A DNA stretch of 64,000 nucleotides from Acidobacteriota bacterium (lineage in GTDB: Bacteria > Acidobacteriota > Vicinamibacteria > Vicinamibacterales > SCN-69-37): positions 124,001-188,000 of the forward strand of contig JADYYY010000010.1 in assembly GCA_020853395.1 (NCBI GenBank), in the 5' to 3' direction. Positions within the stretch are counted from its first letter, which is position 1. Every line of letters begins with the position of its first letter. Below the pieces are notes generated by a model. The model saw only the letters and a list, made by a program, of their open reading frames with translations, searched no databases and was not told the origin of the DNA. Positions 38,187 through 64,000 of the stretch are shown in pieces. A program made the position numbers and the translations under genes.

Positions 38187-39665
38187 TCAGGCGTTGAACT
38201 TCCCCACATCGGCGCGGTACCGCCAGAGGTGGCTCTCGAAGCGGACGCCGTGCTTCCGAAGCACGTTGCGCACTTCGTCAGCCGCGCGGTTCATCTCGCC
38301 CTGGACCCGATAGGATTCCAGGTCGAAGTAGCAGCCGCCATAGCCTTCAGGGCATGGCCCGAATGCCGCCTGAACGATCGCAGAGCAATCGCCGGCCGGC
38401 CGGAGGCCGGTGTAGGCGGCCGATGCCGGATCCATGCCTGCCGCGCGCATCGCTTTCACGACTTCCGGCCAGACCCGCGCCCGCATGAGATGGTCCTTGG
38501 CGGCTGGGCTCAACTGGCCACGCACTGCCGTGATGGGCTTCGCCGGCACGCCGGCGACGATCGTGCGGGCCGGCACACGGCCCGTGATCAGGGAGTTGGC
38601 CAGGGCCTGCGAGCCGTCTTCCATCACGGTGCCGGGCGTGACGAGGCAGCCACCCGTGACCCAGACGTGGCGGCCGATCGTCACCGGTGCGAAGCTCGCC
38701 GTGTAGCCGTCCAGCACGTTCTGCCAATGGCTGTGCGTGTAGATCGAAACGCGAGGGCTGAGGCAACTGACGTCGCCGATCGTCACCGCGTGCGACGTGT
38801 TGATCAGACAATCGCTCGACACGAGACACGAATGCCCCACCGTCAGCGACGCCTCGGCGTTGAACGCGCCGCCCTGGCCGATCAGCACGCGGTTGACGAG
38901 AAACAGCATGTCGCCGAACCGGAGATGCCGGCACATGATGTCGTTGTCGTGGCCGAACAGACCGCCGACACCGACCACGAGCGACTCGGCCTGAATCACG
39001 GTGCGCGCGCCGAACCTACAGCCGCGCCCGACCTGGATGGAGGCGGCATAGATCGCCGCTCCCGGCTCGAACACCACATCGTCATCGACGAGCGCGCCGA
39101 ACTGGCGATAGAGGCGGACCTTGAGATCGCTCGCCAAGTCCGCGAACCCACTGCCCGGCTTGCGGATGTCGGCGAGGAATGCCGGATCGAGTATTCCGGT
39201 GGCGGCCGGAGTCGCGGCTATCGAGGCAGCAGCGGCGACCGGCGGCCGAACGGCGGGCTCGGCGTCTCGTGGCGGCGCCTCCACTCGCGCTACCCCCTCG
39301 ATTCGCGTTGACGGGTCCACGCGCGCCGGCGCCTCCACTCGTGTCGGCGCTTCCACTGGCGCCGCACCCTCGACTCGCGCCGACGCCCGCGGCAGCCCGG
39401 CGGACGGCGGACGGGCACCATCCGTCAACTGCCCGATTTCGGCGCCCACCGCCACGTCGTCACCTTCCGAGACCGCGAACCAGCAGTGCCCGTCAGCGGG
39501 AGACTCCACATCGAACGAGGCCTTCGTGGTCTCGATCACCGCGACGATGTCGCCGCGCGCGACGCGCTGACCAGGCTCGACGATGAGACGCGCCACGACG
39601 ACGACGTCGTCGTTGACGCTGACGCGCGGGACGAGAATCGGCGTGACCGGATTCGACGATGGCAT
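38187..39665 (-). CDS. Lipoyl-domain/left-handed beta-helix acyltransferase fusion
   Basis: The product is 492 residues. Residues about 8-82 form a biotinyl/lipoyl carrier domain with Lys48 in ETTKASFDV, placed as in lipoylated E2 proteins. Residues about 85-155 are a Pro/Ala/Val/Arg linker with a repeating RVEAP-like unit. Residues about 195-380 are hexapeptide repeats of an acyltransferase, with a likely catalytic His in YTHSHW and the usual VAGVPAKPI closing motif. A helical tail follows. Known sugar acyltransferases of this fold use acyl-CoA or acyl-ACP. A fused lipoyl arm suggests acyl-dihydrolipoamide as donor, which is inference. The next gene is a PIG-L deacetylase 18 bp upstream. Its lipoyl domain is closely similar to that at 61717-63126. 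Confidence 0.85.
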   Translation of the reverse strand: MPSSNPVTPILVPRVSVNDDVVVVARLIVEPGQRVARGDIVAVIETTKASFDVESPADGHCWFAVSEGDDVAVGAEIGQLTDGARPPSAGLPRASARVEGAAPVEAPTRVEAPARVDPSTRIEGVARVEAPPRDAEPAVRPPVAAAASIAATPAATGILDPAFLADIRKPGSGFADLASDLKVRLYRQFGALVDDDVVFEPGAAIYAASIQVGRGCRFGARTVIQAESLVVGVGGLFGHDNDIMCRHLRFGDMLFLVNRVLIGQGGAFNAEASLTVGHSCLVSSDCLINTSHAVTIGDVSCLSPRVSIYTHSHWQNVLDGYTASFAPVTIGRHVWVTGGCLVTPGTVMEDGSQALANSLITGRVPARTIVAGVPAKPITAVRGQLSPAAKDHLMRARVWPEVVKAMRAAGMDPASAAYTGLRPAGDCSAIVQAAFGPCPEGYGGCYFDLESYRVQGEMNRAADEVRNVLRKHGVRFESHLWRYRADVGKFNA

Positions 39666-39683
39666 CGACGCGGGACTCGCGGC

Positions 39684-40352
39684 TCAGCGCCAGTAGCTGC
39701 GCAGCAGGGAGAATGGCTCGGCGGCGGGCATCATCATGCACTGCCCCCAGTAGTGCGCCCGCAGCCGCAAGTGCTCGAGCGACCGCGGATGGGGTGGATC
39801 GGGCGTCTGGCTGACGTAGCAGCGCATCGCCTCGATCTTCGTATCGAGGTAGTCGCTGATGTCGACGAAGTGGTTCGGTGAGAAGTTGTACGGCACGCCC
39901 CACTCGGTCTCGCTCGGCGTTTCGTACGCGAAGATCTGACGGATCGATCGAACCTTGCAGCGGGCGCCGACGAGCGCCGCATCCTGCGCGAGCCGATGAT
40001 CGCGGTTGATGTCGCCGCGCCAGGGCACGTAGAGCACCGCCGGCTTCAACTCCTGCACGGCGCGCTCGATGGGCGCCGCGACGTCGACGAGCGACAGTTT
40101 GTCGAGCCCTTGGTCCGGCAACCCGACGAGCGTCCACGACGACAAGCCGAGCACTTCCGCCGAGGCGCGGCCTTCTCGCGACAGGAAATCGTCCGTCGCA
40201 TCGGGATACCGCAGGCTCATCGCCTCACACAGCACGAGCGCGTGCACCTCGTCGCCCGCGGCGACATGCCGGGCGAGCGTACCGCCCAGGCCGAGCACCT
40301 CGTCATCGGGATGCGCGGCGACAACGAGCACGGGTCCAGCGGGCATGGTCAT
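39684..40352 (-). CDS. PIG-L (LmbE)-family de-N-acetylase
   Basis: The product is 222 residues with the zinc motif AAHPDDEVLG (residues about 11-20) and a later INRDHRLAQD His. Members remove N-acetyl groups from GlcNAc-type sugars or related glycosides. It is directly upstream of the lipoyl-acyltransferase fusion in the same transcript. A de-acetylation followed by re-acylation of an amino sugar is therefore plausible. ATG 40352 is used; another in-frame ATG is at 40346. Confidence 0.9.
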   Translation of the reverse strand: MTMPAGPVLVVAAHPDDEVLGLGGTLARHVAAGDEVHALVLCEAMSLRYPDATDDFLSREGRASAEVLGLSSWTLVGLPDQGLDKLSLVDVAAPIERAVQELKPAVLYVPWRGDINRDHRLAQDAALVGARCKVRSIRQIFAYETPSETEWGVPYNFSPNHFVDISDYLDTKIEAMRCYVSQTPDPPHPRSLEHLRLRAHYWGQCMMMPAAEPFSLLRSYWR

Positions 40353-40538
40353 ACGGTCGATGATCCTCCAGGCGCCGGCCCGATGCAAAAGCCGAACCCG
40401 GCGCAGCGCTGCTCGACGCGCCTGCAGATTTGACAGGCGGAGGCGTCGCTCTGGTGCAGTTGCCGGATTTCGGCCGCGAGAGTCGCCCTCCACGCCGACT
40501 CGCACCGGGGCCGCGCTGCGGCGATTCGCTGAGCCGGT

Positions 40539-40554
40539 GGTACACCGCTTGCCG
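40539..40554 (+). promoter_or_regulatory. Candidate sigma-54 promoter before the PEP-CTERM gene
   Basis: TGGTACACCGCTTGCC has GG and GC doublets exactly 10 bp apart and a TTGC -12 box. The start site would fall near 40565, only about 5 nt before the ATG used here. That is awkward unless translation starts at the in-frame ATG at 40609. PEP-CTERM genes in other bacteria are often under RpoN control. Confidence 0.35.
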
Positions 40555-40569
40555 ATTCGGAAGACCAGG

Positions 40570-41331
40570 ATGCCGTCACGTTTTTGTGTCGCGGCCGCGC
40601 GCGGCCTGATGGCCGCCGGAATCGTCGTGTCCTTGGCAGCGACGGCAGCGGCGACGCCGCTGACGCTCACCAATGCCGGGTTCGAGACCGACGAGCCGAC
40701 GGCCGGGATGACCTTCAACGGGTTGCCGTCCACGACCGGACAGTGGGAGGGCGACGATTCCAGGCGCGTGACTGCGGAGCAGGGGATCGCGCCGTTCGAA
40801 GGCGAGGCGATGCTGCGCTTCCTCTCGAGCGCCAATCCCGCAGCCGGCTGGGGATGGGCGTCAGACGTCTGGCAACTCATCGACGCGGCGCCGGCGCAAT
40901 CGGTCATTCAGGCCGGCGAGGCACTGGTCACGTTCTCCGCTCACTTCAATCGGATCGGCGGCAACACCGAGCCGCTGTTCTTCATCACGCTGCGCGCCTT
41001 CGGAGGCCTGCCAGCGGACTTCCCTCTCGCCGCCGAGTCGCCGCTCGCGACCGCGAACGCCTTCCTCACCTCGGACGACGACCCGAACACGTGGGAGCCG
41101 CTGAGCGTCACGCTGCTGCTCCCGCCGGGGACGACATTCATCGGCGTGCGTCTTGCCGCGAAGGAGACGATCGACGACACGCCCGTGCCGTTCGAGTTCC
41201 TGGGACACTACGCGGATGGGACCTCGCTCACGCTGACGCCGGTGCCGGAACCGGCGACCGCACTTCTCGTGCTCTCGGGCGCGGCAGGGCTCATCGCGCG
41301 ACGCCGCCGCAGCCGTTCCGGGCAATTCTGA
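40570..41331 (+). CDS. PEP-CTERM sorted surface protein
   Basis: The product is 253 residues. It has a signal peptide (about 1-29), a beta-rich domain starting TPLTLTNAGFETDEPTAG, and a C-terminal sorting tail. That tail is the motif VPEP, a hydrophobic span and RRRRSR. Such tails are cleaved by an exosortase; none is encoded in this window. The fold before the tail resembles carbohydrate-binding or adhesin-like jelly rolls found in EPS-linked PEP-CTERM proteins. It is divergent from the PIG-L gene. Confidence 0.86.
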   Translation: MPSRFCVAAARGLMAAGIVVSLAATAAATPLTLTNAGFETDEPTAGMTFNGLPSTTGQWEGDDSRRVTAEQGIAPFEGEAMLRFLSSANPAAGWGWASDVWQLIDAAPAQSVIQAGEALVTFSAHFNRIGGNTEPLFFITLRAFGGLPADFPLAAESPLATANAFLTSDDDPNTWEPLSVTLLLPPGTTFIGVRLAAKETIDDTPVPFEFLGHYADGTSLTLTPVPEPATALLVLSGAAGLIARRRRSRSGQF

Positions 41332-58948: not shown

Positions 58949-59680
58949 TCACGATCCGCCGACGCGCCGATCCATCGGCGCCTCCGTCTGTGCCGTGCCC
59001 GCCAGTTGCCGGAATCCGATGACGCGGGCCGGCGTACCGGCCGCAATGGCGTACGGCGGCACGTCGCGCATCACCACCGAGCCGGCCGCCACGACGGCCC
59101 CCGTCCCGATGGTCACGCCGGACAAGACCGTCACGTTCGTGCCGAGCCATGCCTCCTCACCGATCGTGATGTCCCCTTTCGTCACGAGAGGCTGCCGGCG
59201 GATCGGGACCTCGGGCGCGATGCCGTGGTCATAGGGATACAACGCACAGCCGTAGGCCAGGCTCGCGCCGCGTCCGATGTGAATGGAGCCCTTGTACGCC
59301 ATGAGCTGACACCGGGCGTGCACGGACACGTCGTCGGCGATCCCGATTGTCCCGTTCTCGCCCGTCTCGATGAACGACTCGCGATAGAGCTGCACGCGGT
59401 CTCCGATCGTGATTTCGCCCGAACCGTCCCGCGAGAAGATCACGACGCCCTCGGCGATGAAGGTGTGCCGTCCGCGATGACACCTCGGGTGATGGATCGT
59501 GGCACGCGGCGAGATGAAGCCGCCGGAACTGAGCCGCGCCAACTCGTTCTGCGCGCGATGCGGCGGCGCTGCCCAGCTCGCCACACGCATCGCGATCCGG
59601 CCGAGGCCGCGATCACCCGCCAGTCGCATCCACACCCGCATCCACAGCCGGCGCGGTTCACGCAGCGATCGCGCGGTCAT
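58949..59680 (-). CDS. Left-handed beta-helix sugar acyltransferase
   Basis: The product is 243 residues: a basic N terminus, then hexapeptide repeats (about 60-220) with GEITIGDRVQL, GCALYPYDHGIAPE (catalytic His region) and AAGTPARVIG at the end. It resembles WbbJ/maltose O-acetyltransferase-type enzymes that use acyl-CoA. ATG 59680 follows the ATPase stop by 19 bp. It is a conventional counterpart to the lipoyl-fused acyltransferase at 38187-39665. Confidence 0.9.
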   Translation of the reverse strand: MTARSLREPRRLWMRVWMRLAGDRGLGRIAMRVASWAAPPHRAQNELARLSSGGFISPRATIHHPRCHRGRHTFIAEGVVIFSRDGSGEITIGDRVQLYRESFIETGENGTIGIADDVSVHARCQLMAYKGSIHIGRGASLAYGCALYPYDHGIAPEVPIRRQPLVTKGDITIGEEAWLGTNVTVLSGVTIGTGAVVAAGSVVMRDVPPYAIAAGTPARVIGFRQLAGTAQTEAPMDRRVGGS

Positions 59681-59699
59681 CCCCACGATCTCGTCCGCC

Positions 59700-61028
<1,329 letters not shown>

Positions 61029-61036
61029 GGCGCGAG

Positions 61037-61720
61037 TCAGCGACCAGCCGTCGACGACGGCAGAACGACGACGGCCGCTGCGAGCGCTGCCGTGCGCGTC
61101 AGGCTGACGGCGTGCGGCAAGCGGCACGGCTGCGGCGGCGTCACGTGGTCCAGCCACGGACGCCCGCTTTCGTCGAGGCTGACCTGCAGGGCGCGAGGGT
61201 CCTCCCCCAGGAAGCGGGGATCGCACTTCTTCAGCGCCTCCTTCGCGCACCACCGCGCCGCGAAATGCCCACGCGGCTCTTCCTGCCTCGCGCAATAGCC
61301 GATCTCGGCCGCCGTGAAATGCGCCTGGTAGAACTCGTGCGTCCAGAAGTCGTCCGCCGACGGCATCGCCTCCACCAGCTCGATGTCGAGCCCAACCAGC
61401 AGGTCGTGCGTGCTCGTCGGATCGACTGGTGCGACGCGCATCGGCGCGGCGTCCGATAGCGGCCCAGGCTCCGCCGCGGAGGACGTGGACGGCGGTTCGC
61501 CGAACAGCGCCGCTTCGAGCTCACCGAACGTGGCCGCAGCCACGGCAGCCGACGAGTACACCCCGAGACGGCGTCGAATGGCGGCGAGCAGCAGGCCGCG
61601 GCCCGCCGAGCCGCGCAGCCGCGGGTGGCGCAGCGAGAAGTCCCGGCCGATCTGCTCGGCCGGCACTCCGTACATCTGCGCGACGATGCTTCGCAGCGTC
61701 ACGGTGTCCGTGCGGCTCAT
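61037..61720 (-). CDS. ACP-like/AcpS-type phosphopantetheinyl transferase fusion
   Basis: The product is 227 residues. Residues about 5-72 look like an acyl carrier domain: IVAQMYGVPAEQIGRDFSL then LRGSAGRGLLLAAIRRRLGV, with Ser38 at the place of the phosphopantetheine Ser but without the usual DSL. Residues about 105-220 match AcpS: Asp112 in GLDIELVE, FTAAEIGYC and RWCAKEALKK (Glu161, Lys165). The late SxxH motif is SLTRT, so the His is replaced. The ATG overlaps the stop of the E2-like gene by 4 bp, indicating coupled translation. I know of no characterised protein with this architecture in a glycan locus. The AcpS part is a confident call; the carrier part is moderate. Confidence 0.78.
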   Translation of the reverse strand: MSRTDTVTLRSIVAQMYGVPAEQIGRDFSLRHPRLRGSAGRGLLLAAIRRRLGVYSSAAVAAATFGELEAALFGEPPSTSSAAEPGPLSDAAPMRVAPVDPTSTHDLLVGLDIELVEAMPSADDFWTHEFYQAHFTAAEIGYCARQEEPRGHFAARWCAKEALKKCDPRFLGEDPRALQVSLDESGRPWLDHVTPPQPCRLPHAVSLTRTAALAAAVVVLPSSTAGR

Positions 61721-63126
61721 GCGTACCAGTCCTGCAGGCAGACGGTGCACACGAGCTGTTCGGCACGGCCCGCGGCCGCGACCGCTCGCACCAGGAAGTG
61801 CCGCGTTTCCTCGAGCTCGTCGATGCTTCGCAGGCACAGCGCACATTCCGGCTCTGCCTTGGGCGGATCGGCGGTGATTCTTTTCGGAAGGCTCTGCTCG
61901 TGGCCGGCCAGCCGGTCTCGAAGTTCCTCGAGAAACGCCGTCGCCGACCGCCCGTCGGCCACCTGATGATCGAACCGCAGCACGAGATTGAAGATCTGGC
62001 TCCCCGGCGCGGGCGCGCACACACCGAGCACGGCCGACTGCCGCTCGCTCAGTACCGGCTGAACGTGCACGGCGCCCGTTGCCGAAAGATCCGTAATCGT
62101 GAACGTCGCTTCCGACAGGGCTCCCGGCGCCAGCGACTCGTCGAGGTAATCCATGATCAACTGCTGTTTCTCATCGAGGATCTGACGAACCGACTTCCGA
62201 TCCGCCTCCTTGATGACGACGACCTTGAGGCCAAGGCCAAGGTCGACGGCGTAGCCGATATTGACGGCGCCGTACTGGTAGCAGGTGCCAGCGCTGTAGT
62301 AGGCATTGAGCCCCGGGTACCTCGACAGCAGCCGGGCACTTTCGAAGATCAGCGTGGCCGCGAACACTCCCGGAGCGCCGTCTTCCTCTGCGCTGAAGAG
62401 ACGACCGTCGGTCGGCACCGGCACGGTCACCGAACTGGGAATCGTGTGCGAGTACGCGGCACGGATCTGATCGCCTTCGACGCGCTTGGCCCGGGGCAGG
62501 GGGACGGGAGTCACGCCGGCATGACCTCCGGCGCCGTTCGAGAGCGCCCCACCCGGTGAAGGCTCGATCACCTGCGCGGCCGGCCGCCGATCATCGTGCG
62601 CGGCAGCGTGCAGAAGCACGTCGCGCTCCCGAACGAGGAGCCGCCCTTCGAAGGCCCGAACGTCCACCGACAGCCGCTGCGCCACATCGGCTGCCCGCTC
62701 GCTGAACCGCGGTGCTCGACCGGGCGTTGCGCCGATCCGCAACGCCGGCTCGTCCCGGCCGCGCTCGCACGCCCTGCCGTCGTCGGCCGCCATCGACGCC
62801 GGTTCCGATGCTGTCGACGTACGAGCGGGCGGCTCGCTGCACACACGGTCGGGTCGCGACAGCGCCGCGGCTTGCGTCGACTCCGCATCAGGCCCGATGT
62901 GGCACAGCACCGCATCCACCGGGACGTCGTCGCCCTGCGCGGCGACACGCCAAACGACGCCGGACGCGGGCGCCGGCACATCGAAGGACGTCTTGGTCGT
63001 CTCGAGCACGACGAGCGGCGCACCGGCTTCGATGAAGTCGCCATCGTTGACGAGCCACTCGACGACGGCAACCGACGAGTCGTTCACTGATTCCACGGGA
63101 GGCCGCACCGGGACGATGTCAGACAT
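61717..63126 (-). CDS. E2-type (2-oxoacid dehydrogenase) lipoyl acyltransferase with four-Cys C-terminal tail
   Basis: The product is 469 residues. The lipoyl domain (about 1-78) has Lys45 in ETTKTSFDV. A peripheral-subunit-binding-like segment lies at about 138-172 (RFSERAADVAQRL...RERDV). The catalytic domain (about 215-410) has TFTITDLS and the active site FDHQVADG with His387 and Asp391. Residues about 426-466 add CALC and CTVC pairs, probably a zinc ribbon, which classical E2 proteins lack. It should move acyl groups between dihydrolipoamide and CoA or another thiol. E1 and E3 genes are not seen here. GGAGGT precedes ATG 63126. Confidence 0.88.
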   Translation of the reverse strand: MSDIVPVRPPVESVNDSSVAVVEWLVNDGDFIEAGAPLVVLETTKTSFDVPAPASGVVWRVAAQGDDVPVDAVLCHIGPDAESTQAAALSRPDRVCSEPPARTSTASEPASMAADDGRACERGRDEPALRIGATPGRAPRFSERAADVAQRLSVDVRAFEGRLLVRERDVLLHAAAHDDRRPAAQVIEPSPGGALSNGAGGHAGVTPVPLPRAKRVEGDQIRAAYSHTIPSSVTVPVPTDGRLFSAEEDGAPGVFAATLIFESARLLSRYPGLNAYYSAGTCYQYGAVNIGYAVDLGLGLKVVVIKEADRKSVRQILDEKQQLIMDYLDESLAPGALSEATFTITDLSATGAVHVQPVLSERQSAVLGVCAPAPGSQIFNLVLRFDHQVADGRSATAFLEELRDRLAGHEQSLPKRITADPPKAEPECALCLRSIDELEETRHFLVRAVAAAGRAEQLVCTVCLQDWYA

Positions 63127-63171: not shown

Positions 63172-64000
63172 TCACCCTGACACCGTCACGGGCAATGGCA
63201 CGCAGCGATCGTCCTCGTGCCCCACCGTCCGCTCCTCGGTCGTCCACTCGAGCAGCGGCCGCACCGCGCCGGGCAGGCCTCCGGGGTAATCGCCGCGCGC
63301 CGTCTCGGCGTTCGGACAATCGATCACCTGAAAGGCCACCGCATCCCGTTCCCAGAACTGCAGAATGTCCGGTTCCAGTGTACGCATCGCCGCGCCGATG
63401 AACATCATGCCTTCCGACAGCAGGTTCCCCGGTATTCGCCCGACGCTCCGATAGCGTCCGGCCGGCCGCGGCCTGGATCGCCAGCGGGGATCCTGGTCGT
63501 TGCCGACGAACGCGAACAGGCCCTGTGCCGTGTGGACGCTGAAGTGCGGCAGCAGCGTCAATCCCGGGCGCAGCACGTCGTATTCGAGCTCGATCGACAC
63601 CGGCTCGCGGATGTCGATCGCGTCGACGATGTCGCCCAGCCGGTTGCGTACGCGAACGGCGCGCAGACGCACGGCATCGTGTCCGGGCGCCCTGCCCGGA
63701 TCCAGCCACTCGCGCGCCGCCGTCGTCCCCAGCCCCGAGTGCAGGTAGTGCGCCACCACGTCGGCCGATGACCCGTCTCGCGTCAGCCGGCCGCCGTCGA
63801 GCAGAATCGCCCGCGGACACAAGCGCGTAATCGCCGGCATGCTGTGCGACACGAACAGCACCGTGCGCCCCTCGGCCCCCACCGCCTGCATCTTGTCGAG
63901 GCACTTCCGCTGGAACCGCGCGTCGCCGACGGCCAGCACTTCGTCGACGAGCAGGATCTCCGGCTCGAGATGCGCCGCCACCGCGAAGGCGAGCCGCAGG
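63172..64000 (-). CDS. Wzt-type polysaccharide ABC transporter ATP-binding protein, copy 2 (cut by window edge)
   Basis: The last ~275 codons are present and the frame runs to the right edge. Walker B EILLVDEVLAVGD, the H-loop FVSHSMP and a full Wzt-like C-terminal domain are seen. It is nearly identical to copy 1 through the ABC part and still very close in the C-terminal sandwich, differing mostly in the last ~25 residues. It lies 45 bp upstream of the E2-like gene, and begins the visible operon. Confidence 0.93.
   Translation of the reverse strand, partial: LRLAFAVAAHLEPEILLVDEVLAVGDARFQRKCLDKMQAVGAEGRTVLFVSHSMPAITRLCPRAILLDGGRLTRDGSSADVVAHYLHSGLGTTAAREWLDPGRAPGHDAVRLRAVRVRNRLGDIVDAIDIREPVSIELEYDVLRPGLTLLPHFSVHTAQGLFAFVGNDQDPRWRSRPRPAGRYRSVGRIPGNLLSEGMMFIGAAMRTLEPDILQFWERDAVAFQVIDCPNAETARGDYPGGLPGAVRPLLEWTTEERTVGHEDDRCVPLPVTVSG
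63231..64000 (-). repeat. Direct repeat copy B (in Wzt-like gene 2)
   Basis: Partner of 59753-60522, same orientation. The pair brackets the E2-like and ACP-AcpS genes, so homologous recombination between copies would delete exactly that module and leave one working ATPase gene. Confidence 0.85.

Follow-up and report, generated by a model that had tools for sequence, protein, structure and literature searches.

A probable carrier-protein-charging 2-oxoacid dehydrogenase for glycan acylation, encoded in an acidobacterial polysaccharide export operon

A polysaccharide export operon of an Acidobacteriota bacterium probably encodes a 2-oxoacid dehydrogenase that charges a carrier protein for glycan acylation. 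The window, the whole stretch of DNA that was analysed, is 64,000 nucleotides long (C10:124001-188000 of a 4.28 Mb genome). It holds the gene of an E2-type acyltransferase next to that of a fusion of an ACP-like domain with an AcpS-type phosphopantetheinyl transferase (ACP-AcpS), and the operon continues past the window edge to a fused E1 (Table 1). From the domain content, the active-site residues, the order of the genes and their co-occurrence, all observed here, we infer the acyl-transfer steps, the identity of the acyl group, the source of E3 and the glycan target.

In the proposed mechanism, the TPP-dependent E1 would decarboxylate a 2-oxoacid, most likely pyruvate, and reductively acylate the lipoyl arm at Lys45 of E2, while the AcpS domain would prime the ACP domain of its own chain by attaching phosphopantetheine to Ser38. 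From lipoamide, the acyl group would then pass to the ACP thiol, and not to CoA, through the catalytic domain of E2 (His387), with the four-Cys tail of E2 probably docking the ACP-AcpS protein. A hexapeptide (LbH) acyltransferase would carry the acyl group from the ACP to a sugar of the Wzm/Wzt-exported polymer, and an E3 encoded elsewhere in the genome would reoxidise the lipoyl arm. Where a lipoyl-LbH fusion stands in for E2, as in sister cassettes, the self-priming and lipoamide-to-ACP steps would be bypassed. Because the cassette includes an E1, the acyl group on E2 would come from a 2-oxoacid and not from acyl-CoA, with the carrier replacing CoA as acceptor. We give even chances to the broader proposal that such CoA-independent glycan acylation is widespread, with E1-E2 turning a 2-oxoacid into acyl-ACP, or in sister cassettes into acyl-lipoyl, from which hexapeptide acyltransferases would take the acyl group, fuelled by pyruvate oxidation and not by acetyl-CoA.

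Table 1. Features of the cassette and its surroundings. Plain coordinates are window positions; aa, residues of the protein named.
Feature	Position	Strand	Basis or remark
E1 alpha-beta fusion	C10:189857-191851		2.7 kb upstream of window E2, outside window
Second E2	C10:188530-189864 = L007:4530-5864	-	just outside window
Wzt-like ABC export ATPase, copy 1	63172..64000 in window, continues past edge to 64503	-	
E2-type acyltransferase, catalytic copy, 469 aa	61717..63126	-	Pfam, motifs
Lipoyl domain of catalytic E2	aa 1-79		
PSBD-like region of catalytic E2	aa 139-177		
CAT-fold catalytic domain of catalytic E2	about aa 210-412		
Four-Cys C-terminus of catalytic E2	aa 427-469		
Codon of lipoyl Lys45 of E2	62992..62994	-	invariant, 37 aligned E2 proteins
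Codon of catalytic His387 of E2 (HQVADG)	61966..61968	-	at least 90% conserved in 37 E2s
CxxC..CxxC C-terminal segment of E2	61720..61848	-	co-occurrence with ACP-AcpS
ACP-AcpS fusion, 227 aa	61037..61720	-	Pfam, AF2, profile comparison, structure match
ACP-like domain of ACP-AcpS	aa 1-75		
AcpS-type phosphopantetheinyl transferase domain of ACP-AcpS	aa 104-225		
Codon of Ser38, predicted phosphopantetheine site	61607..61609	-	invariant, 35/35 relatives
Wzt-like ABC export ATPase, copy 2	59700..61028	-	
Hexapeptide (LbH) acyltransferase	58949..59710	-	next downstream of Wzt copy 2
Lipoyl-LbH fusion acyltransferase (class B acceptor type)	38187..39665	-	

Motifs and Pfam agree with the sequence-only reading of this DNA, which had described the E2 as carrying lipoyl Lys45 and an intact HxxxDG site. 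The protein contains ETTKTSFDV (lipoyl Lys45), LRFDHQVADG (His387) and a C-terminal CxxC..CxxC, and matches Biotin_lipoyl (1.9e-12) and 2-oxoacid_dh (1.7e-26). It keeps the standard E2 fold, with both a lipoyl domain and a CAT-like core bearing the catalytic His. The stop of its gene overlaps the start of ACP-AcpS as ATGA (61720-61717), and the pair is indeed embedded between two Wzt-like ATPases, as had been noted. Two Wzt-like ATPases, 83.7% identical to each other, were found in this one operon, together with a single Wzm-like permease nearby. In transcription order the operon encodes an ACP-like protein, an FkbH-like protein, a VOC protein, a 377-aa protein, a PseB-like dehydratase, the Wzm-like permease, a membrane protein, the E1 alpha-beta fusion, the second E2, Wzt copy 1, the window E2, ACP-AcpS, Wzt copy 2 and the LbH acyltransferase. 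Its first four genes (L007:12460-15994, minus strand), of which FkbH (TIGR01686, 1e-85) and VOC (methylmalonyl-CoA epimerase-like) have a family and the 377-aa protein has none, adjoin PseB/PseC-like genes and look like a second cassette that would supply an amino sugar with an acyl group of glyceryl or lactyl type.

The E2/ACP-AcpS pair had been thought to lie without E1 or E3 nearby. The first half of this claim fails: rightward extension of the contig, which had been proposed as a way to look for E1 and Wzm, reached both an E1 alpha-beta fusion and the Wzm-like permease. The fusion combines E1_dh (5e-43) with the transketolase domains (Transket_pyr 1e-24, Transketolase_C 2.5e-14) expected of a TPP-dependent E1. 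No other E1 of this type occurs in the genome, where the best remaining match is 31% identical. Pyruvate and acetyl are the likeliest substrate and acyl group, since E1 alpha best matches the model of the acetyl-transferring pyruvate dehydrogenase E1; the PDB matches include both branched-chain and pyruvate enzymes. The second E2 is 50% identical to the window E2 and retains the lipoyl Lys and the four Cys. It reads AxxxSG where HxxxDG is expected, the catalytic His being replaced by Ala, and by analogy with protein X/E3BP this inactive copy may be a structural or lipoyl-supplying subunit. The absence of E3 stands: no E3 gene was found at the locus, and the only E3 genes above the family cut-off in the genome (C1:14710 and C10:436395) are both close to other E2 genes, not encoded with this E1/E2. 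A separate AcpS and a separate ACP are also present elsewhere in the host genome.

The fusion of a carrier domain with an AcpS is likewise borne out. Pfam ACPS matches the window protein at 5.6e-12 and is found in all 35 ACP-AcpS proteins, in which Ser38, Asp112, Glu161 and Lys165 are invariant; the Asp/Glu metal ligands of an AcpS accompany the domain. In structure comparison, the AcpS half matched solved AcpS and fungal fatty acid synthase PPT domains with Z of about 15, and AcpS matches filled the match list. The AF2 model (mean pLDDT 89.7) places helices in the N-terminal domain at 3-17, 38-52, 57-61 and 65-73, so that this predicted helical bundle has the modifiable serine of an ACP, Ser38, at the start of helix II. 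Profile-profile comparison of this domain with housekeeping ACPs gave 84.6%, with Ser38 on the DSL serine, against 1.2% and 0.3% for two controls. Pfam PP-binding (PF00550), however, matched none of the 35 members, and Ser38 stands in an x-S-x context, not DSL. ACP-like, in the sense of working like an ACP, is therefore the safer name for a domain identified by its fold, profile match and invariant Ser. A C-terminal membrane helix is predicted in 21 of the 35 proteins and is absent from that of the window.

A search over 396 genomes of the phylum retrieved two E2 relatives. In the first (G145), E1, E2 and ACP-AcpS follow in that order, with genes overlapping or abutting, within a glycosyltransferase region; in the second (G405), E1 and E2 adjoin NRPS genes and a lipoyl-synthase-like gene. 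The alignment of the three E1s (54-59% identity) was used to gather the best 80 of at least 566 E1 relatives, ranked by similarity to class A-type E1s. Together with the three starting genomes this gave 83 mechanically gene-called loci, which are not independent of each other. What we call class A, an E1 fusion with an E2 ending in CxxC..CxxC and an ACP-AcpS, made up 40 of these 83, class membership being uncertain where a locus ends at a contig break. The genes usually overlap or abut.

By organism name, class A occurs in at least 10 phyla, mostly in metagenome assemblies: Acidobacteriota, Planctomycetota, Bacteroidota, Nitrospirota, Spirochaetota, Verrucomicrobiota, Armatimonadota, Bacillota, Pseudomonadota, Omnitrophota, Myxococcota, Thermodesulfobacteriota and Ignavibacteriota. 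Among the carriers are two cultured species, Niastella populi (L102) and Pollutibacter soli (L107). One record titled Klebsiella pneumoniae, a metagenome bin (L060), bears the cassette; its label is doubtful, as its E1 groups with a Verrucomicrobia sequence. The recurrence of the pair and its E1 across phyla argues that the pairing of E2 with ACP-AcpS is beyond chance. E1 is the most conserved part of the cassette, and the aspartate of HxxxDG varies among the E2s, while the lipoyl Lys is fully and the catalytic His largely kept (Table 1). ACP-AcpS accompanied 40 of 43 four-Cys E2s (exceptions: L059, L064 and L072) and none of the eight E2s lacking the four Cys (Fisher p about 3e-7, relatedness ignored).

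The 125 class A neighbours comprised, among others, 17 GT1-type glycosyltransferases, 14 epimerase/dehydratases, 12 hexapeptide proteins and five GT2. The earlier idea of dedicated acyl delivery in glycan loci thus keeps its core, given a conserved pair in at least 10 phyla with glycosyltransferases and an LbH partner, and loses the notion of a system free of E1. Nor does the pair occur chiefly next to ordinary 2-oxoacid dehydrogenases away from glycan loci: the adjoining E1 belongs to a special clade. Queried on its own, ACP-AcpS recovered mostly housekeeping AcpS; the ACP-AcpS-like matches retrieved in this way had no E1/E2 nearby, and the closest family members had no close E2.

Stand-alone LbH genes, detected with an iterated HMM, point to the step after the carrier. 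An LbH acyltransferase lay near E1 in 31 of 39 class A loci. Directly upstream of E1 and on the same strand, it was found in 18 of 33 class A loci with room for it, versus 0 of 20 loci of class B, in which LbH is fused to the lipoyl domain. These class B loci consist of an E1 fusion followed by a lipoyl domain joined to a hexapeptide acyltransferase, with no E2 core; they neighbour glycosyltransferases and epimerases and, in some, polysaccharide deacetylases with DUF3473. In the host genome the LbH gene is located downstream of Wzt copy 2 and not beside E1. Its start codon is uncertain (59710 or 59680), and the tandem hexapeptide repeats of the family are present at 58952-59674 (Hexapep 1.9e-11). 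It is a candidate for the final acyltransferase. We infer that LbH acyltransferases are the recurring final enzyme in this E1-E2 clade.

LbH acyltransferases normally use acyl-CoA, and hexapeptide-class sugar acyltransferases are usually assumed to depend on it. An unlikely alternative is that the hexapeptide enzyme uses ordinary acyl-CoA made on the spot by E1 and E2, with ACP-AcpS having a separate job, for example priming the ACP of the FkbH cassette. The standard fold retained in E2 would suit such a role, as would the usual LbH donor and the availability of a second ACP-like protein at L007:15665-15994. It fits less well with the repeated presence of a carrier next to E2s of this family, be it as an AcpS fusion, as a discrete protein or within a polyketide synthase, and with the invariant cis Ser of ACP-AcpS. 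Moreover, PP-binding was not among the families matched by at least three of the 125 class A neighbours, and the class B lipoyl-LbH fusions would need no CoA. Nor did an HMM of housekeeping ACPs detect a canonical ACP in class A loci, a weak result because the same HMM missed carrier domains in L094 and G405.

The carrier-charging reading also gains from the E2s that have neither the four Cys nor ACP-AcpS. Beside E1/E2, a discrete ACP was found in L084, L127, L130 and L133, called from the WDSM motif in L084 and also from Pfam PP-binding in the other three (in L127 just below the cut-off). As the carrier may be fused, discrete or part of a polyketide synthase, a phosphopantetheine carrier is the recurring partner of E2 in the clade. 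On the E1 tree, drawn without an outgroup, nine label changes were counted for class A and five for class B, neither of them forming a single clade, so that on this tree the acceptor type switched repeatedly. A planctomycete sub-clade of E1 fusions (L080, L082, L085 and L086) had no E2, lipoyl-LbH or ACP-AcpS detected nearby.

In Ruminiclostridium sufflavum (L094:9953-21481), the E1 fusion is followed by a single protein that joins a lipoyl domain and an E2 core to KS, DH, KR and three carrier domains, and this E2 is apparently the loading part of a polyketide synthase. In an acidobacterial contig (L054:11981-19608, the same contig as L059), an NRPS module, E1, a four-Cys E2 and a lipoyl-synthase-like gene are consecutive. 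That some E1-E2 pairs of the clade belong to NRPS/PKS clusters (G405/L059, L094 and L135) would agree with a relay serving a small molecule or lipid, as a peptide, polyketide or lipid starter unit, and not a surface polysaccharide. We consider this improbable, however: the pairs in such clusters occur without ACP-AcpS, glycan genes surround class A, and the window pair is enclosed by Wzt genes, with Wzm, PseB/PseC-like genes and glycosyltransferases in its vicinity.

Two further readings are both very improbable. In the first, suggested by the loss of His and Asp in one of the two E2 copies, a 2-oxoacid dehydrogenase of central metabolism, or a degenerate one, would have been stranded in the glycan locus. 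It is already disfavoured by the conservation of the cassette in many phyla and by the invariance of its active-site residues; other E2 genes, accompanied by E3 partners, are present elsewhere in the genome. The second, the lipoyl protein as a redox rather than an acyl carrier, has the CxxC motifs of E2 on its side and a precedent in the lipoate-binding proteins with non-dehydrogenase roles in sulfur oxidation (PMC6067878), but conservation extends to a cognate E1 and to the CAT-fold domain with its His.

The carrier-charging cassette resembles several known systems in part. With the pyruvate and branched-chain 2-oxoacid dehydrogenase complexes (E1 alpha2beta2, E2, E3) it shares the E1 relationship, the lipoyl domain, the PSBD-like region and the CAT-fold E2 core; it differs in the fused E1 alpha and beta, the lack of an E3 gene, the four-Cys tail, the ACP-AcpS partner and the glycan-locus setting. 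We do not call it an ordinary member of that family, because E3 is missing and the acceptor is a proposed one. In the Dlt pathway (DltA/DltC/DltB), a dedicated carrier protein takes an acyl group to an envelope polymer, and the proposed cassette would work similarly, with a carrier-bound acyl group for an envelope polymer. Dlt charging, though, is an ATP-dependent adenylation, whereas here E1/E2 would charge the carrier from a 2-oxoacid, and the usual partner is an LbH acyltransferase, unlike in Dlt. In one Nitrospirae locus (L084:9745-14539), ACP, E1, E2 and an MBOAT O-acyltransferase, of the DltB superfamily, are consecutive, an arrangement reminiscent of Dlt or alginate acetylation.

WcaF/CysE-like hexapeptide O-acetyltransferases are likewise LbH enzymes of polysaccharide loci, but the LbH proteins here carry a lipoyl domain on the same chain in class B and accompany E1-E2-ACP in class A. 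One chain also unites ACP and PPT in fungal type I fatty acid synthase, which provides the best structural match of the AcpS half, while ACP-AcpS is a small bacterial two-domain protein and not a fatty acid synthase. The tetronate E2 homologues Agg4, QmnD3 and AbmA4 are, like the cassette E2, E2-type enzymes recruited to biosynthesis; they are encoded beside a glyceryl-S-ACP synthase and an ACP and take part in an acylation-elimination step during antibiotic biosynthesis, with no E1 or AcpS fusion described (PMC5819245).

Each part of the cassette belongs to a known family. In the open full-text literature, subscription journals being outside the scope of the search, we found no description of glycan loci that combine E1/E2 and a phosphopantetheine carrier. 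If the proposal is true, a carrier-charging 2-oxoacid dehydrogenase would provide a new acyl-donor route for glycan acylation, and would account for orphan lipoyl and phosphopantetheine proteins in glycan loci of many phyla. It would also bear on starter-unit chemistry, since the same clade appears to feed NRPS/PKS assembly lines. The cassette is compact, and its acyl donor and acceptor are directly testable. Further along the window (38187-40907, minus strand), a lipoyl-LbH fusion acyltransferase without an E1 of its own adjoins a PIG-L-type deacetylase, and might be served by the single E1, at a distance of about 26 kb.
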